Below, in pieces: positions 8,525-37,847 of a stretch of 38,386 nucleotides of DNA (the first letter of the stretch is position 1; the number at the start of each line of letters is the position of its first letter). The notes beneath the pieces are model-generated. The model ran no database searches and was not told where the DNA came from. It saw nothing but the letters and a program-made list of their open reading frames with translations. Source of the stretch: a virus; IMG/VR virus record IMGVR_UViG_3300034159_000043, positions 1 through 38,386 of that record, one strand, 5' to 3'. The position numbers and the translations under genes were made by a program.

Positions 8525-9664
8525 TCAGCTCCCGCGGTCCGACAGCAGCCACGGCGCGATCGTCACCGAATAGGCGTAGCGGGCCTTGGCGTCGCTCAAT
8601 GCGCGCTCATCGTTGGTGGTCGGCGCCATCGTCAGGACGAAGCCGAAGGTGATCGACAGCAGGCCCTCCGCGAGCGGCACCGGCTTGTCGACGAACAGCG
8701 AGAAATCGTGATGCGCGGCGAGCAGCGCGCGCGGGAAGCGCACCGGCTGCTGCATCGGCGGATGCCATTTGTCCGCACCAGGTACCTCGGCAAATGGCGG
8801 AAACTGGACGAAGGCCTGAAACTGCTGCTTGCCGGTCGGCAGCGCCCGGGGAAACTTGACCGGGATCTGCAGCGGCGGCACCCAGAAGGTGTCGAACGTC
8901 GTCCTGATATTGAAGGCATGATGCGCGGCCAGCAGCTGGCGCGGAAACCGCACCGGCCCCTGCATCGGCGGGTGCCAGCGATCGGCGGTGACGGCCTCGG
9001 CGAACGGCGCGAACTGGACGAAGGCGGCGAACTGCTGCTTGGCGGTCGGCAGCGCGCGCGGGAATTTGACCGGGATCTGGAGCGGCGGAATCCAGCGATC
9101 GGCGGTGATCGTCTCGGCGAACGGCGCGGCCTGGACGAAGGCTGCGAACTGCTGCCGATAGGTCGGAAGTTGCCGGGCGAACCGCACCGGCTGTTGCAGC
9201 GGCGGCGACCATTTGTCGGCGCCCGGGGTCTCGGCGAACGGGCCGGCCTGCACGAAGGCGGCGAACTGCTGATCGGCCGCCGGCAACTGGCGCGGAAACC
9301 GCACCGGCTGCTGCAGCGGCGGCAGCCATTTGTCGGTGCTGACGACTTCGGCGAACGGCGCCGCCTGAACGAAGGCGGCGAATTGCTGCGACCGGGTCGG
9401 CAGCGCGCGGGCAAAGCGCACCGGCTCGGAGAACGGCTTGAACCAGCGGTCGGCGGTCGTGGCTTCGGCGCGGGTCAAGAGCCCGGCATCGACCGTGAAG
9501 GCCGACCACGCCACCGCCGCGATCACGGCGGCCTGCCGCACCCGATGGAACGACGGGCGCTGCATCGGCGGATGCCAGGAATCGGCAAAGATCGGACGCT
9601 CGACGGCGATCTCGTTGCCGAGGTCGCCGAACGCGCCGCCGCCGAAGCTGTGCCCGCCGAACAT
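8525..9664 (-). CDS. Tail protein with tandem 39-residue repeats
   Basis: A 379-residue protein. Residues 1-14 are MFGGHSFGGGAFGD, close to the start of the next gene. Residues about 28-334 are eight tandem units with the pattern DKW-x-PP-x-Q-x-PVRF-x-R-x-LP, then QQFAAFVQ and PFAE; four full units are 39 residues (117 bp) apart and others are shorter or diverged. The last 45 residues (LLSITFGFVLTMAP onward) are non-repetitive. Trp and Pro at fixed places suggest a repeat fold of short linked modules rather than a coiled coil. It lies in the tail-tip block. I know no named family for it. Confidence 0.6.
   Translation of the reverse strand: MFGGHSFGGGAFGDLGNEIAVERPIFADSWHPPMQRPSFHRVRQAAVIAAVAWSAFTVDAGLLTRAEATTADRWFKPFSEPVRFARALPTRSQQFAAFVQAAPFAEVVSTDKWLPPLQQPVRFPRQLPAADQQFAAFVQAGPFAETPGADKWSPPLQQPVRFARQLPTYRQQFAAFVQAAPFAETITADRWIPPLQIPVKFPRALPTAKQQFAAFVQFAPFAEAVTADRWHPPMQGPVRFPRQLLAAHHAFNIRTTFDTFWVPPLQIPVKFPRALPTGKQQFQAFVQFPPFAEVPGADKWHPPMQQPVRFPRALLAAHHDFSLFVDKPVPLAEGLLSITFGFVLTMAPTTNDERALSDAKARYAYSVTIAPWLLSDRGS
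8663..9583. repeat. Tandem 117-bp coding repeats
   Basis: DNA repeats that encode the eight Trp/Pro-rich units of the tail protein. Neighbouring copies begin with the near-identical CGCACCGGCTG string, for example at about 9183 and 9300, exactly 117 bases apart. Copies differ at many third positions, so they are not a recent expansion. Confidence 0.8.
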
Positions 9665-15921: not shown

Positions 15922-16710
15922 CGCCGCCGTTCTCGTCTTCCGACATGATAGCTGCGCGACTAGCGCCGAGGTCGATAAGCGCCTTCGCCTCCCAGGGCTC
16001 CAGCACCACCCGCATGAACGAAGACCAGGCCTGCAGGGCCTCCCACGTCACCACGGTCGGCCCGAAACCGTTGGACGACAGGCCAGACGCCAATTCGCAA
16101 AACCACTCCCAGAGGTAGGCCAACGCCGCTGGGCATTCGGGTCCCGGTTCGGCAATAGGTGCCGCCGGCGCGATGCCGGCCGCCGCGAAGATTTCGGCGG
16201 CCAGTTCTTCGTGTTCGCCAGCGGATGCGCCGTCCTTCAGGCGCCGCCCGGACCGAAACTGGTGCTCGGCAAAGGCGTGGAGGCCTTCGACGAGCTCTTG
16301 ATAAAATTTGCCGCGTCGTTCGCCGCCACCCAGGGCTGCACGAACAGCCAGTGCATCCCGGGCTCGGTGTAGAGCTCCAGCGCATTCTGACGGTTGCAGG
16401 CAACGTCGATCGGCTCCTTGGTGATCGGATCGACCAGATACCAGCCCTTGGTGAGCGCAGCGCACTTGGCGGCGTTTTCCTCGAACTGATCGACGTCCGG
16501 CACGCCGCCGCGGGTGCGCGCAGCCTTCTTGCGATAGACCTGCGTCCGCTCGCGATCGAAGGCGCGGCCCTCGACGCTGTCGGCGGCCAGCACCTCGATG
16601 TAGGCTTCGCGGCCGTCCTTGTCGCGCAGCACCTCGTCGGTCAGCGCGTCGATGATCGGCACGCGAAATGCCTCCGAGACGTTGGCGGCGAGATTTCCGA
16701 ATTTGCTCAT
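15896..16710 (-). CDS. Tail assembly chaperone fusion made by -1 frameshift (GT-like)
   Basis: The G-like frame can pass into a second open frame by a -1 slip at AAATTTT (16303-16309). The fusion would have 136 residues from the first frame and 135 from the second, 271 in all. The second frame has no good start of its own before the slip site and encodes a compact helical domain (LAYLWEWFCELASGL, VTWEALQAWSSFM, EPWEAKALIDLG). This is the lambda G/GT arrangement found in most siphoviruses before the tape measure. The fusion is expected to be a minor product that links tube protein to tape measure. Confidence 0.8.
16237..16710 (-). CDS. Tail assembly chaperone, zero-frame product (G-like)
   Basis: A 157-residue protein starting at 16710, with AAGGAAA upstream. 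It begins MSKFGNLAANVSEAF and contains EAYIEVLAADSVEGRAFDRE and YLVDPITKEPID, as in the phage tail chaperones next to the tube gene. The last 21 codons after the slippery site (IKSSSKASTPLPSTSF) look like non-domain sequence, as is usual for the zero-frame end of a G gene. It coats the tape measure during tail assembly and is not in the virion. Location between tube and tape measure is canonical. Confidence 0.75.
   Translation of the reverse strand: MSKFGNLAANVSEAFRVPIIDALTDEVLRDKDGREAYIEVLAADSVEGRAFDRERTQVYRKKAARTRGGVPDVDQFEENAAKCAALTKGWYLVDPITKEPIDVACNRQNALELYTEPGMHWLFVQPWVAANDAANFIKSSSKASTPLPSTSFGPGGA
16303..16309 (-). promoter_or_regulatory. -1 ribosomal frameshift slippery heptamer
   Basis: The minus-strand heptamer is A AAT TTT in the zero frame, a perfect X-XXY-YYZ site. 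It lies inside the overlap of the G-like frame and the second frame. After the slip the ribosome reads AAA TTT and continues with TAT CAA GAG. No sharp downstream pseudoknot was worked out by eye. Confidence 0.8.
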
Positions 16711-16823
16711 GGTATGTTTCCTTGGCGGAGGTGAACCGGAGACGCCCGCCAGCGCCCCCGGCTCGATTGCGCAATCACCCGGCGCGAGCCGAGCGGGTTT
16801 CCCCGTAGCGGCGGGGATCAGTA

Positions 16824-18080
16824 TCAGGCGATTTGGGTATCCGTGATCTGCAGCGTCGTGGACTCGACGCCCGGAGCGGTTCCGACATAGCGGCCGGCTT
16901 CGAACGAACACTGGATCGCCTTGGCCTTGTTGGTGTCGGATTCGCTGTTTGAATTGATCTTGATCCGCGGCAGATAGAACGCGTTCGCCGGGGCATCGGC
17001 CGCATTGGTCGACGGCAGATAGGCCAGCAGCGCCAGCTCGGTTTCATTGTCGAAGGCGCTGAGGAACGTGTCGTCCTGCAGAAACACGGTGAAGTCTCCG
17101 CTGCAGACGAAATCCCCGAGCATGATGCCGGCGATCAAGCCCTCGGAGTTCATTGCCTTGGCGGCTTCGGCGCCGAGGTCGACCTTGATGCTCAAGCTGG
17201 TGGCAACGCCCAGGACGCTACCGCCGGACATCAGCAAGCCCTGCATCGCTGTCGGAATGTCGGTCGTGGTCTGGGCGGCCGGCGATGTGAAGAACGGAGC
17301 GGACGATCCGGACAGCACCTTGCGGTTGCGCCCCAGCACCGAGAAGTTCAGGCCAACATTGGCATTCACGCCGATCGACAGATCGAAGCCGGTGATCTTG
17401 GCTTCGGTGAACAGCTTCGACAGGTCGATGTCCGGGTTGTTGGCCTCGAAGGCGACCTTGTACTCGGTGCGGTCGGCCTTGGTCGGCGGATTGATCGCAG
17501 AGGCGCCAGCCTCGGTCACGGTGAAGCCGGTATCGGCAGTCTCGGTTGTCGGCGCCGGGAAGATCGAGACCACGCGGTTGGACCCACCGGAGAAGCCCAG
17601 CACGATGAAATTCTTGTCGTTGTTGTCGGCCGTCGCCAGATTGGCGAATCTGTAGATCCGGCCGACCCGCATCCCGAGCGCGACGGGATCGCCGCCACCG
17701 AACGTCGCCGTCTTGGCCGTGGCGTCGAAGGCGACGCTGGTGAGGTCGGTTTCGTCAAGCTCGACCGGGGTAGTCCAGTCGCTGCGCATGACCGCAGCGA
17801 ACAGATCCTGGTGGGTGCCGGGCGACAGGAAGCCATTGATGGTGCCGGCGACCGAGCGGCTGCCGTGCTTGCCCATCGGCTGTTGCACGTCGTCGCGCTT
17901 CTCGTTCGGCCGATAGCTGTCCTTGCTCAGCGACAGATTGTGCGAGACATGCCGCAGCGACTGCCCGCCGCTGGCACCGGGCGCAACCGACGTGACGAGC
18001 TCGGTCGTGGCATCGATCGCAGCGTCGGCATAAAGCTTGTAGATCAGGCGTTCGGATACGGCTTCGGCAAGACCGGCCAT
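16824..18080 (-). CDS. Major tail tube protein
   Basis: A 418-residue protein placed just before the G/GT chaperone, the usual place of the tail tube gene. It is rich in beta-type segments with Gly, Thr and Asp (GSRSVAGTINGFLSPGTHQD, GMRVGRIYRFANLA, ITGFDLSIGVNANVGLNFSV, GDFVCSGDFTVFL). It ends with ESTTLQITDTQIA. The size is large for a simple tube protein and close to the Phage_TTP_2-like tube proteins. It would form the hexameric rings of the tail. Confidence 0.7.
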   Translation of the reverse strand: MAGLAEAVSERLIYKLYADAAIDATTELVTSVAPGASGGQSLRHVSHNLSLSKDSYRPNEKRDDVQQPMGKHGSRSVAGTINGFLSPGTHQDLFAAVMRSDWTTPVELDETDLTSVAFDATAKTATFGGGDPVALGMRVGRIYRFANLATADNNDKNFIVLGFSGGSNRVVSIFPAPTTETADTGFTVTEAGASAINPPTKADRTEYKVAFEANNPDIDLSKLFTEAKITGFDLSIGVNANVGLNFSVLGRNRKVLSGSSAPFFTSPAAQTTTDIPTAMQGLLMSGGSVLGVATSLSIKVDLGAEAAKAMNSEGLIAGIMLGDFVCSGDFTVFLQDDTFLSAFDNETELALLAYLPSTNAADAPANAFYLPRIKINSNSESDTNKAKAIQCSFEAGRYVGTAPGVESTTLQITDTQIA

Positions 18081-21347: not shown

Positions 21348-22214
21348 CTAGGCCCGCAGCAGGCTCATGCGAGCCGCGGCCAGGCGGAGGGAGGCGATGC
21401 CGTCATCGGCATCATCGTCGTCGTCAGCGCGCGGCGTGACGTCCGAGGCAGCGCCCGGCGTGCCTTCGGTGATTTCCTTCATGATGCGACGCCGTTCCGC
21501 GCGCGGCATACCCTGTCGGGTCAAGGCCGCCTCGACCCGGTACAGCGTCGGTGCATGGTTCTTTGCGCCGGCAGATCCCTGCTTCACGTCTGCGGCAAGC
21601 AGAGCATCGGCGAAACCTTCCTCGATCGCCTTCTGGCCGGCGATCCAGTGCTCGACGTCGTTCCAGGCCGCGATCGTTTCGACCGGCTGGCCGGTGCGGT
21701 CCGCATACATCTGGTTCAACGTCGCGTCGAACGTCTCCATGATGTCGCCGGTCTCGCGCATCATGTGCCGATCGCCAACAGCGACCCATTGGGTGTTGTG
21801 GGTCATCACGAACGCGGTCTTGCCGATCTCGATGCGGTCGCCCGCCATGGCGATCATCGAGGCCGCGGATGCCGCAATGCCAATGATCTGGACCGTCACT
21901 TCGGCAGGATGCTGCCTCAACAGATTGTAAATCGCCACGCCCTCGAAAAAGTCTCCGCCCGGCGAATTGATCTGGACGATGACAGGCTTGTCGCCGATCG
22001 CGCGCAGCGCGCCGGCGATGCGCTTGGCGGTGATGCCCTCGCCGGTCCAGAAATCCACCCCGATGACGTCGAGAATGCTGATTACGGCGTTGTCGTCCGC
22101 AGCCGCGGTCGGCATCAGACCCGGCGACCATGCCTGCACGGCCTTCTCGTTCAGCACGAACGACGCCTGCGGCGCGTTCGGCCGATGCAGCTCAGGCAGC
22201 TCTCGGATCGTCAT
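21348..22214 (-). CDS. Head maturation protease, ClpP-like
   Basis: A 288-residue serine peptidase of the S14 type. Oxyanion loop NSPGGDFFEG is at residues 83-92, the nucleophile is Ser119 in SAASMIAMAGD, and the base is probably His139 in VMTHNTQW. The acid may be Asp186 before HWIAGQKAIEEGFAD. The C-terminal region from residue 215 is charged and probably has a targeting role. It would cut the capsid delta domain inside the prohead. The gene overlaps the portal gene by 23 bases. Confidence 0.85.
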   Translation of the reverse strand: MTIRELPELHRPNAPQASFVLNEKAVQAWSPGLMPTAAADDNAVISILDVIGVDFWTGEGITAKRIAGALRAIGDKPVIVQINSPGGDFFEGVAIYNLLRQHPAEVTVQIIGIAASAASMIAMAGDRIEIGKTAFVMTHNTQWVAVGDRHMMRETGDIMETFDATLNQMYADRTGQPVETIAAWNDVEHWIAGQKAIEEGFADALLAADVKQGSAGAKNHAPTLYRVEAALTRQGMPRAERRRIMKEITEGTPGAASDVTPRADDDDDADDGIASLRLAAARMSLLRA

Positions 22215-23454
22215 TATGGTCGTCTCCCAGCGGAATGCCGCCGTTGTTGCTGATCGCCGCCCGCGTGGACGCCTCGGTAATCGGCACGTTCTGCATCTGC
22301 ATACGCGCGACGTCGCCGCCGGCGATTGGCGGCCAGCCTTCCAGCTTTCGGACCTGGTTGATCGTCATGACGCCGGCGTTCAGCATCGCCACATAGAACG
22401 CGGAGCGTGCCGCGGTGTCGCCGCGTAGCAGATCCTCGAAGTTGATCTTGACCGAAAACCGCAGGCGTTCAGCCGGCGTCAGAATTCGTTTGCTGATCGC
22501 CTGTTCGATGCGTTTCAGATCGGTGCGCAAGCCGAACGTGTACCAGGCCTGCATCACCGTCGCGACGCCGGTGCCCCACATCGTCTGGCCCTCGGCGCCG
22601 TGACCGATGATGATCGGCGGAATGCCGAGCCAGCGGCAGACTTCCTCGACGTTGAAGCGCCGGTTCATAATCATCTCGGCGTCGCGCATCGACAGTGAGA
22701 TCGACTTCCAATCGACGCCGCCCTCGAGGAGGCCAGCCCAGGGCGCATTGGGGCCGGCGTTGGCGGCGACCAGATTCTTCTTGGCGTCGGCGCGCTGATC
22801 GTCCGTGAGCGTTTTTGCGCCGGGCGGCATCACGAAGAACCCCTTCGTGCGGCCGCCGCGCGAGAAGGTCTGGCCGGCGAACTTTTCAGTCGCGATCGTC
22901 AGGCTCAGCGTCTGCCGGGCGTAGCCGACCGGCGACATCCCCATGTCGCCATCGCCGAATCCCTTGACGTGAAACACCTTGTCTTCGGGCAAGGTGTCCT
23001 GCTTGCCGCGATCCATGAACCGATAGATCAGCGCACCATCACTGTCGCGCTCGGCGATCGTGCTAGCGGGCATCGGGTTGAGCGCGACGATGCGGTCGCG
23101 CGGCCGGACCTTCTCGGCAAAGCCGTTGCCGCTGGTGCATAGACCTAGCCCGACACCTTCCCAGAACTCGATCGGAGTCTGATCGGCATTCGGGCTGTCG
23201 TCGATCAGCGCCTGCACCGGATGGTCGGCGACCCGGACCTTGGAGCCGTCCTTTTGGGTCTCCATCAGATCGAACGACAGGCTCGCGACCGTCGACGATT
23301 TGATCCGCGCCCCGGCCATGAATGCGGACAGATTGAGCGCGCCCTGCACCGACACGGGCTCGCCAGCCCAGGTCTCGCCGTGGCCCATCAGATCGTAGAG
23401 TTCACGATCCGTCGCCTTGAACGACCGGCCGAACCATCGGTGCCAGAAAGCCAT
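22192..23454 (-). CDS. Portal protein, HK97 type
   Basis: A 420-residue protein between terminase and protease. Recognisable pieces are VSVQGALNLSAFMAGARIKS, EFWEGVGLGLCTSGNGFAE, HVKGFGDGDMGMSPVGYA, GGVDWKSISLSMRDAEMI, VCRWLGIPPIIIGH and LTPAERLRFSVKINFEDLLRGD, all usual in HK97-family portals. It forms the dodecamer through which DNA is pumped and to which connector gp6 binds. The start overlaps the stop of the restored terminase frame (TAATG), a sign that the ancestral terminase ended at 23454. Confidence 0.9.
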   Translation of the reverse strand: MAFWHRWFGRSFKATDRELYDLMGHGETWAGEPVSVQGALNLSAFMAGARIKSSTVASLSFDLMETQKDGSKVRVADHPVQALIDDSPNADQTPIEFWEGVGLGLCTSGNGFAEKVRPRDRIVALNPMPASTIAERDSDGALIYRFMDRGKQDTLPEDKVFHVKGFGDGDMGMSPVGYARQTLSLTIATEKFAGQTFSRGGRTKGFFVMPPGAKTLTDDQRADAKKNLVAANAGPNAPWAGLLEGGVDWKSISLSMRDAEMIMNRRFNVEEVCRWLGIPPIIIGHGAEGQTMWGTGVATVMQAWYTFGLRTDLKRIEQAISKRILTPAERLRFSVKINFEDLLRGDTAARSAFYVAMLNAGVMTINQVRKLEGWPPIAGGDVARMQMQNVPITEASTRAAISNNGGIPLGDDHNDDPRAA

Positions 23455-23743
23455 TATGCGGTCACCGCGTTCTTAAGGAAGTCGCCAAGATCGTTGCCCG
23501 CCATAAACTCGCCGTCGGCGGCACCCACGACCATTGCTGTGGTGACCAGACCATCTATGCGACCTCGCGACCGCGCTTTATCGAAGCACCTATTATCTTG
23601 GCCGTCGCGATCCACGTAAGCATTCGCCGCACACATATAGGTCACCGGCGAGTCGTCGATTGTGATGGTGCCGTCAAGAACGTGATCCTCGAGCTTTTCG
23701 ATCGAGGTTGGCATCGTGAGCTGCTTCTCTTCGAAACCCGCCG
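23454..23743 (-). pseudogene. Detached C-terminal part of the large terminase
   Basis: The -1 frame carries the expected end of an HK97-type large terminase: an EKQLTMPTSIEKLEDHVLDG helix, TITIDDSPVTYMCAANAYVD, then RSRGRIDGLVTTAMVVGA. In this family the Asp of the xIDG segment binds the nuclease metal together with the two aspartates of the upstream frame. An internal Met (23714) could in principle give an 86-residue piece, but there is no reason to expect separate expression. Stop TAA overlaps the portal ATG. Confidence 0.8.
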
Positions 23744-25324
23744 TTTGCCCTGATTGTGCGGGACCAGCTTCAGTCCATATCCTTCCGGCTTATTCGGACC
23801 CTCGAATTTCCAGACTGGAAAGCCGCTCGTTTCACACGCAGTGATGAAGTCCGCCATGCCGGCGACATCAAACGCAAGGAACTGCACGTCGTGCTCAGCA
23901 ACCAAACGGGCGACTTCGGCGGCCGCGAACGTCTTGTCGATGGTCGCGCCCGACACCGCCGTGAAATCGATATCTGGGTCGTCGGCCCACTCGACGTATT
24001 TCGCGAGATCCCGCCGCGCGCGGTCGGAAAGTCCGTCCTGCACGGTCCAGTACCAAGTCTTCACAAACAGATGGCGTTCACCATCCTTCTCGCCTTCCCA
24101 GCACGCCGATAGCGCCGTCAAATCGTTCTTCTTCGACAGATCGAGCGACAGCCAGCACTTCTCGCCTTTGTGCTCGTCGGGATCAACTTTGGCCTGCACC
24201 GCAGCCCAAGGTTCCTCCGCCATCCAGAAATCGACGACTCCAAGAGGAATTCCGAAGTACAGACGCTTGGTCGACAGCGCTTTCGACGCTCGCTCGCGCG
24301 CCGTGTTCACTTCGCCGCGGACGTTCTCAATGGGGAATGTGATGCCGAGCGCCGGAAGCGACTTGATCCAGCACGCCTCGTTTTCAAAGACCGTGTCTCT
24401 ATCCGCCTTATCGACGCGGGCGATGAAAGCAAAAGCCTGGTCGTCGATGAACTCGCCCTTCACCACACTCTGGTAGAAATTCGAATATTCGGTACCGACG
24501 ATCTGCGTTGACGCCGGGGTGTTGGTTCCCATCAACATCAGGGCATCGCCGGGCATTTTCGCGATTGCGGCCTGCCACGTTTCAAGCGACGCACTGCTCT
24601 TGAATTCGTGGATCTCGTCGGCTGAGACGAGCGTCGGTCGCGGCCCGGAGATCGATTCTCCGTTCGCGAGCGACTGGAATACCGAGTTCGTCGCCGGGTG
24701 CTCGATCTTGAAGGCGTTGTCGAGAAACCCGCGGATCACCACCTCGCCGAGAGATTCGAGCGTGTGGCCGTCTTCAGGATCACTCCCCGGAATCGGCGCC
24801 CGGCACATCGCCGCGGCATCCTTGAACAGCACGTTCGCCGTCGCCTTGTCCTGGCCGATCGCAAAGACCTTGGCGCGCGGGATGCCGTAATAGCCCATCA
24901 TGTAGAGGCCGGTGGCCGCCATGAACGGGGATTTCGCAGAACCCTTGCCTGCCTCAAGCCAACCGGATCGGTAGCGCATCCGCCCGCTGGATGTTCGCCA
25001 GCCAAACAGGTTTCCAGCTGTGAACGTGTGCCACGGCAAGAGGTTGAACGGCTTGCCGACCAACGCCCCTTCGGTGATGGACAGGACGCTCGGATAGAAC
25101 TTCAAGGCGGGTTCGGCGCGCTCCGGTGCCCAATAGATGTCGCGGCGCGATCCCTCCAGAATGTCCTTCAGATGTCGTTCGGCCGCGTAGCAGGCCAACT
25201 CACCAGACACGATCTTGCCGTCGACGACATCGCGCGCGTATCGCGTCGTCGGATCATTTGGGAACCGATCTGAGGAAGCCGCCACCGATCGGCGACTGCT
25301 TTTGCCTTTGGACTTTTCCACCAT
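23642..25324 (-). CDS. Terminase large subunit, shortened by a -1 frameshift
   Basis: The open frame gives 560 residues. Walker A is EAGKGSAKS (residues 124-132), Walker B is TLVSADEIHE (Asp236, Glu237), and two nuclease aspartates are Asp395 (LSLDLS) and Asp486 (LAFDVAG). After PHNQGK (residue 527) the frame turns to Arg/Ser-rich nonsense. Adding one base at the AAA run (23744-23746) restores a frame that continues TAGFEEKQLT and runs to 23454, giving 623 residues and the third nuclease Asp in GRIDGLV. As written, motor motifs remain but the nuclease site is incomplete. The start overlaps the small subunit gene by 71 bases. Confidence 0.85.
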   Translation of the reverse strand: MVEKSKGKSSRRSVAASSDRFPNDPTTRYARDVVDGKIVSGELACYAAERHLKDILEGSRRDIYWAPERAEPALKFYPSVLSITEGALVGKPFNLLPWHTFTAGNLFGWRTSSGRMRYRSGWLEAGKGSAKSPFMAATGLYMMGYYGIPRAKVFAIGQDKATANVLFKDAAAMCRAPIPGSDPEDGHTLESLGEVVIRGFLDNAFKIEHPATNSVFQSLANGESISGPRPTLVSADEIHEFKSSASLETWQAAIAKMPGDALMLMGTNTPASTQIVGTEYSNFYQSVVKGEFIDDQAFAFIARVDKADRDTVFENEACWIKSLPALGITFPIENVRGEVNTARERASKALSTKRLYFGIPLGVVDFWMAEEPWAAVQAKVDPDEHKGEKCWLSLDLSKKNDLTALSACWEGEKDGERHLFVKTWYWTVQDGLSDRARRDLAKYVEWADDPDIDFTAVSGATIDKTFAAAEVARLVAEHDVQFLAFDVAGMADFITACETSGFPVWKFEGPNKPEGYGLKLVPHNQGKRRVSKRSSSRCQPRSKSSRITFLTAPSQSTTRR

Positions 25325-25769
25325 TGTTGCGCCGCCGTGGCGTGATCGTCAGCTCTGCCTCGGCGGCCGACGCCATCGCATTCGCGTCCTTCAAGACTGT
25401 GAACCAGGGATTGTACGCGGGCTGCTTCTTGCCCTTGCGTGGGTATACCGCCCCCTCATCCGCGACGTGCCGCATCGCGATCTCGTACAGCACGTAGGCG
25501 TCAACCAGGCGCTTGACCTGGCGCTCGTTGGCGTTGGCCAGCTTCTCGGACGTTCGCAGCTCGCCAATGATGATGCGCCACTGCCGGCGCGCGAGATCCT
25601 GGTCGAGCTCGTCGGTGAACTGTGCGGACCACTGAGGCTCGCTCAATCCGTCGACGACCGACGGCTCCGGATGCGTCGAGGTCGGCGCGGGCGGCACAAC
25701 CTTGAGCGTCGGCGGGGCCTTTGCGCTGGGTTTTCGCCCTGCCCCTTCGCGCTTTCCACCTCTCGGCAT
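25254..25769 (-). CDS. Terminase small subunit
   Basis: A 171-residue protein, basic at both ends, beginning MPRGGKREGAGRKPSAKAPP, a start common in P27/Terminase_4-type small subunits. The middle (WSAQFTDELDQDLARRQW, IGELRTSEKLANANERQV, KRLVDAYVLYEIAMRHVADE) is a helical bundle as in this family. It would bind the packaging start site and load the large subunit. It lies directly between the candidate cos region and the large subunit gene. Confidence 0.75.
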   Translation of the reverse strand: MPRGGKREGAGRKPSAKAPPTLKVVPPAPTSTHPEPSVVDGLSEPQWSAQFTDELDQDLARRQWRIIIGELRTSEKLANANERQVKRLVDAYVLYEIAMRHVADEGAVYPRKGKKQPAYNPWFTVLKDANAMASAAEAELTITPRRRNNGGKVQRQKQSPIGGGFLRSVPK

Positions 25770-25943: not shown

Positions 25944-26285
25944 CTACCCCTTCTTGCCCTTCTTGTTCCAAGGATGGTCAGGCGCGAGCGGACGGCCGTT
26001 GATGTCCGCCCCATGAACAACTCGCTGTCCGAACTGCTCGGCGGTCCTGATCTTGTGGCAAGGCTCGCACAAGCAGCGGATGTTGCTATCGTCGTCGGTG
26101 CCGCCGCGCGCCAGCGGGATGATGTGGTCGGGGACCGTCGAGGGGGTGAGGATTCCCCTCGCCAGACAGTCGCGGCACAGCGGCTCCGCCTTCAGTCGTC
26201 GCAGGCGCTGAGCTACACCGCGTCGGCCGCGAAGGCGGTTAGGCTCAGGATCCCTGTTTCGGTATTGATGCTGTGGCTCAACCAC
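25944..26285 (-). CDS. HNH endonuclease next to terminase
   Basis: A 113-residue protein with a GTG start set directly behind the TGA of the upstream gene. Zinc pairs are Cys37/Cys40 (CRDC) and Cys73/Cys76 (CEPC). The HNH residues are Asp53-His54 (VPDHIIPLARGG), Asn68 and His77 (CHKI). HNH proteins beside terminase genes, such as HK97 gp74, stimulate cos cutting by the terminase and are needed for packaging in such phages. The C-terminal tail is basic (HPWNKKGKKG). Confidence 0.85.
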   Translation of the reverse strand: MVEPQHQYRNRDPEPNRLRGRRGVAQRLRRLKAEPLCRDCLARGILTPSTVPDHIIPLARGGTDDDSNIRCLCEPCHKIRTAEQFGQRVVHGADINGRPLAPDHPWNKKGKKG

Positions 26286-28563: not shown

Positions 28564-29339
28564 CGGACGCCAGCCTGCAGGTGATCATAACCTTCCTCGT
28601 GCGCCGGAGCGACCGTTACGGTGTCGCCACCCGCAACGTTACGGTCATCGTTACCGTCGACCGCCACCGGCAGTTTGCGCGCCTTGTAGATCTCGCGCAG
28701 TTGTTCCAGCGTCGGGGCTTTCCACTGCGATTCCACCGGCACCCGCGGCCGCCGGTCGGCGTCGGTGTATTCCTGGAGCTGGGCCGACAGCTTCTTGAGG
28801 CCGTCCTGGACGGTCCTGCTCACCCGTTCCGCCATCTCTGGATTGTCCGGCGGCACCAGCGGCGCCTGGAGCAATTGCTTGATGTCGCGCGCCTCCTTGT
28901 GGATCGCCGACACGTAGCCGTCGACAAGCTGCCGCAGCCGCGCTGACGACGGGGCAAAGTCGGGATTGATGTCCGGCACGGCGCCGCGGGCGATGGCCTT
29001 GCAGGCGTCCCGGATGGCCCAGAGCGGCACGCCGGCCAGCGCCTCGGCGTACTGGTAGACCATTGCTTTCGCGTCGGTGTCGGACGACCCCCGCAGCGAC
29101 GGGTAGCTCGTCATCAGTTTCGCAACCTCGGTCTCGATCTGCTCGGCGGCGGCCTGCTTGGCGCATCCCCGGAGCAGGTCCAGACGCATGCCCAGCCTGC
29201 CCCGTGTCATCACCGACAGAGGCTCGGTCAGGCAGGCGTCATCGCGCATCGACGAGCGCAGCGCCGCAATCGTGCGCGCCAGCTCAGGATCGGCCGGGGG
29301 CGAATTCGTGATCGTCGTGGTCGATAGTGACTGAGCCAT
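28560..29339 (-). CDS. Possible helicase-loader partner (P-like position)
   Basis: A 259-residue mostly helical protein immediately downstream of the O-like replication gene, overlapping it by 56 bases. Segments KAMVYQYAEALAGVPLWAIR and DACKAIARGAVPDINPDFAP (residues about 90-130) resemble phage replication accessory proteins that bind or load the host helicase. No Walker motif is present, so it is not a DnaC-type ATPase. In lambda the gene after O is P, the helicase loader; this role is inferred from order alone. Confidence 0.45.
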   Translation of the reverse strand: MAQSLSTTTITNSPPADPELARTIAALRSSMRDDACLTEPLSVMTRGRLGMRLDLLRGCAKQAAAEQIETEVAKLMTSYPSLRGSSDTDAKAMVYQYAEALAGVPLWAIRDACKAIARGAVPDINPDFAPSSARLRQLVDGYVSAIHKEARDIKQLLQAPLVPPDNPEMAERVSRTVQDGLKKLSAQLQEYTDADRRPRVPVESQWKAPTLEQLREIYKARKLPVAVDGNDDRNVAGGDTVTVAPAHEEGYDHLQAGVR

Positions 29340-30207
29340 TGGTCTGCTCCGCTCGGTTTACGAGGAATTGGGTGAACCCGCCGTTGGCGCGTTGACCGGC
29401 GCCACCACCACCAGGCTTGCTGTTGAATTTGATGCTATTGCGCAGCCATGTGCGGCCGGCGGCGTGCCAGTCGGCGAACACGCTGCCCTTGGCACGGTGG
29501 TGGTCGACGAAGCGGCTGAATTCGTTCTCCGCGTCGGCAACGCGAAGCTTGCGTGCGCTGTCGATGAACAGGTCGTGCATCGATCGGAACTCTAGTTTCG
29601 ACTCGTCCGGCATGGGACTGCTCGCCGCACGCTTCGGTTTCGCCAGCGCTTTCGATTTTTGAGTTGCAGACCCATCCGAAGGATGGGTGGTGTCGGTGAC
29701 AGTGTTGGTGACAGTGACAGTGGCTTCGAGGGGGCTTTCTGCGATCTCAGAAGCCCCTTCGAAGGGACTTCCTGTTTCCGCAATCTCAGATGGTTCAACT
29801 AACTGGTAGGCCGAGCCGTACTTGTCGAAAAACGCCCGCTTGATGCGGGGATTTTCAATTTCGTTGAAGAACCTCGCGACGTGTTTGACCCGCTTATCGG
29901 CGCCTTTCAGCACCTCGCCGATCTGAAATCGCGCCATTTCGTGAACCCAGACGGTTTCCGTCTCCGAATCCACCGTGCAGAAGCCCATGGCAACGAGCTT
30001 CAGAAGCCCCTTCGAAGCCCCTTCGAAGGGCCTTCCTGTTTCCGCTGCGATGTATCCGATGGGGCATCTGAACACGCCGATGATGTTCGCGTGCGGCGAC
30101 GTCATCAGGTACAGCGCGACCACCTGCGCGTCGACGTCGTGCCGCAGCGCGCGGCCGGTAGCGCCGGTCCAGAACGATGGTTTAACGACGCCGTAGTTCA
30201 TGCTCAT
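29284..30207 (-). CDS. O-like phage replication protein
   Basis: A 307-residue protein. The N-terminal 130 residues (NYGVVKPSFWTGATGRALRH, AQVVALYLMTSPHANIIGVF) belong to a widespread phage replication-initiation type with a winged-helix-like domain. Residues 140-200 are a low-complexity linker, and 205-265 form a second helical domain (FSRFVDHHRAKGSVFADWHA, WLRNSIKF). The linker DNA holds palindromes and iterons, a candidate origin, as the lambda origin lies within gene O. The peptide ETGxPFEGAS occurs twice (residues 56-64 and 144-152) because of a DNA repeat. Confidence 0.65.
   Translation of the reverse strand: MSMNYGVVKPSFWTGATGRALRHDVDAQVVALYLMTSPHANIIGVFRCPIGYIAAETGRPFEGASKGLLKLVAMGFCTVDSETETVWVHEMARFQIGEVLKGADKRVKHVARFFNEIENPRIKRAFFDKYGSAYQLVEPSEIAETGSPFEGASEIAESPLEATVTVTNTVTDTTHPSDGSATQKSKALAKPKRAASSPMPDESKLEFRSMHDLFIDSARKLRVADAENEFSRFVDHHRAKGSVFADWHAAGRTWLRNSIKFNSKPGGGGAGQRANGGFTQFLVNRAEQTNGSVTIDHDDHEFAPGRS
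29645..29790. other. Candidate replication origin inside the O-like gene
   Basis: Within about 145 bp lie an 8+3+8 perfect inverted repeat (ACCCATCC-GAA-GGATGGGT, 29670-29688) and iterons GGTGACAGTG at 29695 and 29707 plus TGACAGTG at 29715. A long imperfect hairpin (29723-29766) and the 12-bp palindrome CCCTTCGAAGGG (29755-29766) follow. A T-rich GATTTTTGAG precedes them. Lambda-type phages keep their origin within the initiator gene. Confidence 0.45.
29750..29781. repeat. 32-bp repeat, copy 1
   Basis: Matches 30014-30045 at 31 of 32 bases. It contains the palindrome CCCTTCGAAGGG and encodes part of ETGSPFEGAS in the O-like protein. Confidence 0.85.
30014..30045. repeat. 32-bp repeat, copy 2
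   Basis: Second copy of the 32-bp repeat, with CCCTTCGAAGGG at 30019-30030; it encodes ETGRPFEGAS. A further partial unit (CCCTTCGAAG) lies just before it at 30008-30017. Confidence 0.85.
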
Positions 30208-35495: not shown

Positions 35496-35792
35496 ATGGC
35501 CGCGCGGTTCAAAACCCTCGACGATCTGCCGGCCTTTGCGAGCGAGGACGATCTCGCCGCCGCACTCATGGGCAAAGGGAGAACCGGAGAGTTCCGGCAG
35601 ATGGTGCCTTTACTTGAGGCGCGCGGATTCCCTAAGGTCGACGGCCTGATGGGTGGTCGGTACGTTCCTGCCGTCAGAGCGTTCTTCGACCGCGAATACC
35701 GCGTCAGAGGCGATCAGCAGATCGCCGCGCCGCATGGACCGGCAATGCTGGGGGCGTACAGTGGACGACGAAAAGCGGGCGCCGGGACTTAG
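35496..35792 (+). CDS. Excisionase-like small protein
   Basis: A 98-residue protein directly before and overlapping the integrase. GAGGTGA lies eight bases before the ATG. The segment GRTGEFRQMVPLLEARGFPK with VDGLMGGRYVPAVRAFFDRE fits a small winged helix of the type seen in proteins encoded ahead of integrases. An excisionase or directionality role follows from the place. The family was not confirmed. Confidence 0.5.
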   Translation: MAARFKTLDDLPAFASEDDLAAALMGKGRTGEFRQMVPLLEARGFPKVDGLMGGRYVPAVRAFFDREYRVRGDQQIAAPHGPAMLGAYSGRRKAGAGT

Positions 35793-36969
35793 GTTCGATA
35801 AGCGTGGCCGCCCGTTCTGGCGCGCGACCAAGGACGCCGTGAAAGCCGGGTATCCGGTGAAAAACGTCAACCTGTCCGGCATGACGGGAGACGACCGAGC
35901 CATCGCCGGCCGCTGCACCAGGCTGCAGCTGGAAATGACCGAATGGCTGGCCGGCGGCGGCGCAAAGCGCAAGCCGGTCTTCAACGGCACGTTCGGGAGC
36001 CTGCTTGATCTCTACGAGACCAACCCGAAAAGCCCGTTCTTCAAATTGAAACACGCCTCCCGGCATCCCTACACTGTTTACCTCCGGATGCTGCACGCCG
36101 AGATTGGCCAGTGCCGGATCGACAGCACGGACGGCACCGACGCCGAGACATGGTTCGATTTCTGGTCCGCCGCGGGGAAAAGTGGAAAGCGTCACGTCGC
36201 GAAGGCGCGGACGGCAATCGCCGTGCTCAAGGCGGCGGTCCGCTTCGGCATCATGTCCCGGTTGCCGGGATGCGCCGAGTTCAAGGCTGTGCTGTCGGCG
36301 TGCCGGTTTGAGGGCCTGCAGCCCCGTCAGGCCGTCATCGGCGCTGATCAGGTCATTGCAGCCCGAGCCGCGGCGCACGCTCTGGGGCACCCTGGCGCGG
36401 CCCTCTGCTACGCCATGCAGTTCGAAGGCACCGGGCGGCAGTGGGACATGCGCGGCCAATGGGTGCCGATCGCCGACCCGGCGCCGTCTGCGGTCATTTC
36501 GGGCGGGCTGAAATGGATCGGTCCGACCTGGGCGAACATCGACGCGAACCTGATCCTGCGGTTCACGCCTTCAAAGACGCAGGCCACCACCGGGCAAGCC
36601 GTCGTCGTCGATCTGCGGGCTTGCCCGATGGCGCTCGAGGAAATCGAGAAGGTGCCGGAGGCTGCCCGGGTCGGGCCGCTGATCGTCGATCCGACCACTG
36701 GGCTCCCCTACCGTGACGCCAAATTCGCGAAGGTGTGGCGGGCCGTCAGAACCCGCGCGGGCATTGCCGCCGACGTCTGGAATCGCGACCTGCGGAAATC
36801 CGGCGCGACCGAGGCGCGAGCGGCCGGCGGCGCTACCGACGACCTGCAAAAGCTGATGGGGCACGCGCCAGGGTCCAAAGTCACCGGGAAGGTTTACGAC
36901 CAAGCCGCGTTGGAGGCTCACCGGCGGCTGGCGAAGGTGCGCAAGGCCCACCGAGAACGGAAGGAGTAG
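35761..36969 (+). CDS. Tyrosine site-specific integrase
   Basis: A 402-residue recombinase from a GTG start with GGGGG six bases upstream; ATG at 35734 is the alternative. The N-terminal 60 residues are a small arm-binding-like domain, then a SAM-like core-binding domain follows. The catalytic part has Arg226 (EGTGRQWDM), Arg345 (RDLRKSGATEARA), His368 (LMGHAPG) and the nucleophile Tyr379 (KVYDQ). In the HxxR box the usual His is Arg (RDLR). It inserts and excises the prophage, and its operon is under the repressor-controlled rightward promoter. Confidence 0.85.
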   Translation: MDDEKRAPGLRFDKRGRPFWRATKDAVKAGYPVKNVNLSGMTGDDRAIAGRCTRLQLEMTEWLAGGGAKRKPVFNGTFGSLLDLYETNPKSPFFKLKHASRHPYTVYLRMLHAEIGQCRIDSTDGTDAETWFDFWSAAGKSGKRHVAKARTAIAVLKAAVRFGIMSRLPGCAEFKAVLSACRFEGLQPRQAVIGADQVIAARAAAHALGHPGAALCYAMQFEGTGRQWDMRGQWVPIADPAPSAVISGGLKWIGPTWANIDANLILRFTPSKTQATTGQAVVVDLRACPMALEEIEKVPEAARVGPLIVDPTTGLPYRDAKFAKVWRAVRTRAGIAADVWNRDLRKSGATEARAAGGATDDLQKLMGHAPGSKVTGKVYDQAALEAHRRLAKVRKAHRERKE

Positions 36970-37049: not shown

Positions 37050-37847
37050 TTAACTTCCAGCCAAACTTTCAGCCGCCGAAAGCGCGGCCAGCACCTGCGC
37101 CGCGGCCTTGAACTCGACCTGCCGCGCCGCGCGCCGCGCTGCGACCTCTTCATCCACCCCCCAGCGCTCGATGTTCCAGTCCTCGTCGACATGCGCTGCG
37201 GTCCAGACCTGATCCGGATCGAGCCGGCTTTGCGCCAGCGCCAACGCCAGCAGCGCCGAGCCGGTGATCGTCGTCACCACATGAAAGGCGCCGACCGACC
37301 AAGGGTCTTGCGGGATCGCATCGCGCGCCGCGGCGATCGCGGGTTCGGGCTGACTGACATGCATGATGCCCTGCGCGAGGATGAAATGCGCGCCGAATTC
37401 GTCGGCGGCCCAGAACAGCACCGGGTCCCAATGCTGCGCCTCGCGCGCGATCAGTTCGTCCGGATGGCCGGCGCGATAGAACAACAGATCCGAGCCGAAG
37501 TACTTGGCGACGTCGTCGACGACATCGTCGATGCGGCCGACCACGCCGTCGATCACGCTGTTGGCCAATCGCGTCAGCGGCATCGTGGTCGGATCGATGA
37601 TCTCGGCCTGCGCCTGCCATTCGGCGGCGATCGCTTCGGCGAGTTCGCGCGTCGGCGCCGTGAGCGCGTTGCGCGACGGCGTCTTCACGCCGCGGCCGTC
37701 GAGCGTGATCGCAAAGCCCTCGGGCGTCTCGCTGATCGCAGCCGTCGTATAGAACCGCTTCGGCAGCGCGGTGCGCGTCGTGCGCCGCACCGCTTCTTCG
37801 GGGTCGAGTAGCGACTTGCCGGCGACGTCTTCGAACAACTCACGCAT
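37050..37847 (-). CDS. ATP12-family F1-ATPase assembly chaperone
   Basis: A 265-residue host protein. ATP12 proteins, found in mitochondria and alphaproteobacteria, hold the F1 alpha subunit during ATP synthase assembly. Visible features are the N-terminal KRFYTTAAISETPEGFAITL and GRGVKTPSRNAL, the AIAAEWQAQAEIIDPTTMPL segment (with LTRLANSVIDGV), and DLLFYRAGHPDELIARE. The usual WDPVLFWAADEFG and HVDEDWNIERWG segments are also present. The gene is intact and runs toward the prophage. It marks the right chromosomal flank. Confidence 0.9.
   Translation of the reverse strand: MRELFEDVAGKSLLDPEEAVRRTTRTALPKRFYTTAAISETPEGFAITLDGRGVKTPSRNALTAPTRELAEAIAAEWQAQAEIIDPTTMPLTRLANSVIDGVVGRIDDVVDDVAKYFGSDLLFYRAGHPDELIAREAQHWDPVLFWAADEFGAHFILAQGIMHVSQPEPAIAAARDAIPQDPWSVGAFHVVTTITGSALLALALAQSRLDPDQVWTAAHVDEDWNIERWGVDEEVAARRAARQVEFKAAAQVLAALSAAESLAGS

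Follow-up and report, generated by a model that had tools for sequence, protein, structure and literature searches.

The terminase locus and its prophage

The 38386 bases analysed here, referred to as the window, make up one entire virus record, in which the large terminase (TerL) gene lies between intact portal and small terminase genes (Table 1). Beyond the small terminase follows an HNH endonuclease which, by its position and family, is likely the counterpart of HK97 gp74, a protein with a role in cos cleavage (PMC9410871). The window also encodes an S24-type repressor and an antirepressor; taken with the integrase and the apparent host genes at both ends, they make it most likely that the record is an integrated prophage flanked by chromosomal DNA. 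Two relatives are located in Xanthobacteraceae and Tardiphaga genomes, which suggests that the host is alphaproteobacterial. A tRNA scan and an Rfam scan of the window gave no matches.

Two repeat-bearing regions were observed elsewhere in the window. Tandem 117-base repeats, 64-71% alike, occupy 8717-9511 inside a minus-strand ORF (8525-9664) that is located between tail genes; the 379 aa encoded by this ORF match no protein family. A short element containing the palindrome CCCTTCGAAGGG occurs in near-identical copies at 29747-29781 and 30000-30045, inside the replication-protein ORF 29284-30207, and these copies are possibly replication-origin repeats.

Table 1. Coordinates of the features discussed in the text
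Feature	Position	Strand	Remarks
NAD-dependent epimerase, host-like	567-1646	plus	left end
Tail-chaperone second frame	15896 to about 16309	minus	Phage_TAC_18 domain
Tail assembly chaperone ORF	16237-16911	minus	A-AAT-TTT at 16309
Portal protein	22192-23454	minus	420 aa, intact
Detached TerL C-terminal part	23454-23735	minus, -1 frame	FEEKQL... to stop; includes GRIDG
Junction	23733-23737	minus	family sequence moves from zero frame to -1 frame; window 1 nt short
TerL zero-frame ORF	23642-25324	minus	560 aa; ATPase domain and nuclease domain with first two catalytic Asps
Small terminase	25254-25769	minus	171 aa, PF05119, intact
HNH endonuclease	25944-26285	minus	113 aa
Integrase	35653-36969		adjoins ATP12 gene
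ATP12 F1-ATPase assembly chaperone, host-like	37050-37847	minus	right end

A terminase divided between two frames

The original prediction described an HK97-type large terminase with ATPase motifs and two nuclease aspartates in the minus frame, and profile searches bear this out: the zero-frame ORF 25324-23642 matches the TerL ATPase domain PF03354 (E = 1.5e-11) and positions 4-200 of the TerL nuclease domain PF20441, both above the cut-off. The zero-frame product follows the family sequence as far as GKRRV, after which come about 30 out-of-family residues. The downstream -1 frame matches positions 216-282 of PF20441, completing the nuclease domain, as well as positions 225-294 of phrog_2699; phrog_2699 and phrog_9 both span the two frames. 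Because these domain and phrog matches run on in the -1 frame, the record does contain the frame break, far beyond chance. The tail frame has no internal stop between 23753 and the portal ATG, and the predicted overlap between its stop and that ATG amounts to a single base, the last base of the TAA being the first base of the ATG at 23454. A rejoined protein of about 623 aa, the full form that had been anticipated, fits the length of the relatives' terminases given below.

The structure of HK97 TerL shows three catalytic Asps, D302, D388 and D471 (PMC9410871). When the TerL of the closest relative was aligned with HK97 TerL (6z6d), these residues were found at chain positions 312, 398 and 481, as counted from the alignment and converted to the published numbering by a constant offset of ten. 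The Asp of GRIDG, proposed from the outset as the third metal-binding Asp, aligns with D471 and is indeed encoded in the -1 frame only. The zero-frame product lacks this residue and also the lysine corresponding to K463. All three catalytic Asps are carried by one polypeptide at 95 of 95 related loci, and not in the window.

Intact terminases in relatives, and the place of the break

Alignment with related terminases had been suggested as a check, and it gave one intact frame at every locus and no relative with the same split. The first 17 relatives, obtained by a pattern search and tblastn, are 68-88% identical, and all 17 have a single open frame of 616-628 aa. A profile search widened the set to 95 loci, equal to 83 distinct contigs once twice-fetched contigs were removed; these are about 62-88% identical, and TerL is in one open frame at all of them and split at none. 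A script scored 92 of the 95 as intact and flagged three with an in-frame stop within the aligned span; each of these three has one open frame of 608-617 codons with the Walker A and GRIDG motifs. Because the ranking of loci by match quality favours intact genes, 0 split contigs out of 83 is a biased rate.

Near-identical copies were sought as well. Megablast gave no hit in phages, and a 26-base stretch had no exact match in viral contigs. A 16-base pattern occurred in eight viral contigs, which were taken as chance since none of the eight matches the window by blastn at E <= 1e-10. Among 398 genomes drawn from the order of one relative's host, the search returned that relative and weaker or chance matches.

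The relatives also correct the place of the break. It had been put at the AAA run 23744-23746, with one missing A to explain everything; the net change of one nucleotide stands, and the place does not. At the junction, the closest relatives read QGKRRVFEEKQL, and the zero frame of the window still encodes GKRRV, hence the frame switch is at 23737-23733, about ten bases downstream of the proposed run, with which the seventeen first relatives disagree. The junction sequence of the closest ones is QGKRRVFEEKQLTMP, and the other frame is needed in the window only from FEEKQL onward. When the DNA is aligned, every relative has one nucleotide more than the window at 23737-23733. Exact placement of such a junction thus requires relatives, as the reading of a single sequence missed the frame switch by about ten bases.

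Is the split gene recoded?

Programmed -1 ribosomal frameshifting could yield some full-length terminase from the split gene. It might be considered because the TerL tail frame remains open to the portal ATG and is still conserved, because recoding has been put forward for the terminase of Streptomyces phage Hau3 (PMC5009743), and because -1 shifting appears to operate in this prophage's own tail-chaperone gene. This last gene likely has a genuine programmed -1 frameshift: the window has the canonical A-AAT-TTT at 16309, and the closest relative (L035, at 2824) has T-TTT-TTG at the corresponding place. It is a known kind of signal and serves as an internal control for the TerL junction. However, the TerL gene has only one in-phase X-XXY-YYZ heptamer, at 25262, and none in the overlap; the claim that the junction has no such site holds throughout the interval from 23753 to the zero-frame stop. 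RNA structure does not provide a stimulatory element either: the RNA downstream of the junction folds at -24.8 kcal/mol, whereas shuffled sequences average -26.06 (z = 0.46), so it is not unusually stable. With no slippery heptamer, no unusual RNA structure and no second example among the 95 loci on 83 contigs, programmed shifting is very unlikely. The earlier preference for a mutation or a sequencing error over programmed shifting is therefore upheld by the lack of a slippery site and by the intact genes at all 95 loci.

Other routes to a functional protein fare no better. The event proposed for the Hau3 terminase is a bypassing that involves a UUA codon (PMC5009743), and bypassing of this type was rejected for the window, where no zero-frame codon between 23764 and the stop is TTA. 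Low-level frameshifting with no signal, by which most of the terminase made would be nuclease-dead and a small share full-length, perhaps as a way to balance cutting against packaging, is highly improbable. Finally, the terminase might be a split, two-protein enzyme whose tail is translated separately from an ATG at 23714, as an ATG-started ORF of 86 aa (23714-23454) is present in the tail frame. However, the codon specifies a Met that is normally internal in the family (LTMPTS), the first ORF runs on past it, and 0 of 95 loci show a two-protein split, so this arrangement is extremely improbable.

Origin and age of the lesion

In the main reading, with a probability of about 0.94, the terL gene of an integrated HK97-type prophage has lost one nucleotide at 23737-23733 in a single, non-programmed event, and the terminase is truncated. 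None of the 83 related contigs examined has the break, which is therefore a chance mutation of an ordinary kind or a slip in sequencing; no new gene-expression trick is called for. The loss would leave a truncated terminase that keeps the ATPase domain and two nuclease Asps and lacks the conserved C-terminal part with the third catalytic Asp. Such a zero-frame product would be expected to have lost cos cutting, as its sequence suggests, and, provided that the cell really carries the lesion, both processing and packaging of DNA by the prophage should fail.

The age of the base loss can be bounded by comparison with the closest relative, from which the tail differs by 36 synonymous and 8 nonsynonymous codon changes and the head by 200 and 61 (Fisher p = 0.56), a test that argues only against an old lesion, because most of this divergence predates any lesion. 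The detached tail is thus as constrained as the head, and the lesion is either recent or an artefact; an old decaying pseudogene was discarded, since the tail is constrained to this degree and is free of stops.

Between a mutation and an artefact, the base loss is somewhat more likely to be a recent genuine mutation. A sequencing or assembly (consensus) error, in which case the terminase of the phage would be intact, is a less probable but serious alternative: the break is a singleton among intact relatives, the detached tail is no less constrained than the head, and a published survey of prokaryotic frame breaks ascribes singletons with intact homologues mainly to errors in sequencing or to recent indels, the former being expected for the majority (PMC3711429). 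However, no other frame break was found among the genes comparable with the closest relative. When the ORFs of that relative were compared with the window, no recognisable gene except the terminase was broken across frames; the remaining multi-frame matches were plus-strand ORFs antisense to genes. Furthermore, the break site has no long homopolymer, as only a short run, and no run of four or more identical bases, occurs within 23700-23760. Long homopolymers are more typical places for sequencing indels than short runs. What was found at the locus, namely a singleton break, intact relatives and a detached part free of decay, is the pattern of a recent pseudogene or a consensus error.

If the lesion is genuine, a prophage incapable of packaging, with its other comparable genes intact, would represent an early step of prophage decay. 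The finding is an ordinary one and matters little beyond annotation.

Comparison with known systems

HK97 TerL (6z6d; PMC9410871) has the same layout of ATPase and RNase H-like nuclease as the TerL of the window, and D302 and D388 align with the two zero-frame Asps as D471 does with that of GRIDG; in both, small terminase, HNH endonuclease and portal genes are neighbours. In the window, by contrast, the portion bearing the third Asp has fallen out of frame. The alphaproteobacterial prophage TerLs (L002-L018, L037-L114) are 62-88% identical and have the same surrounding gene order, and gp29 of Azospirillum phage Cd is 44-46% identical to the TerL of the window; unlike the latter, all of these are in one open frame.

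Among systems with a shifted frame, the tail assembly chaperone shift of the lambda gpG-gpGT type resembles the TerL halves in that one ORF overlaps another in its -1 frame, whereas the TerL junction lacks both a slippery heptamer and conservation. The Hau3 terminase (PMC5009743) resembles the TerL of the window in the break of its reading frame, and differs in that a UUA codon is involved, the junction of the window being devoid of TTA. The singleton frame-broken genes of the prokaryotic survey (PMC3711429) share with the TerL of the window one break, intact homologues and the lack of a recoding signal, and nothing tested separates this gene from them.
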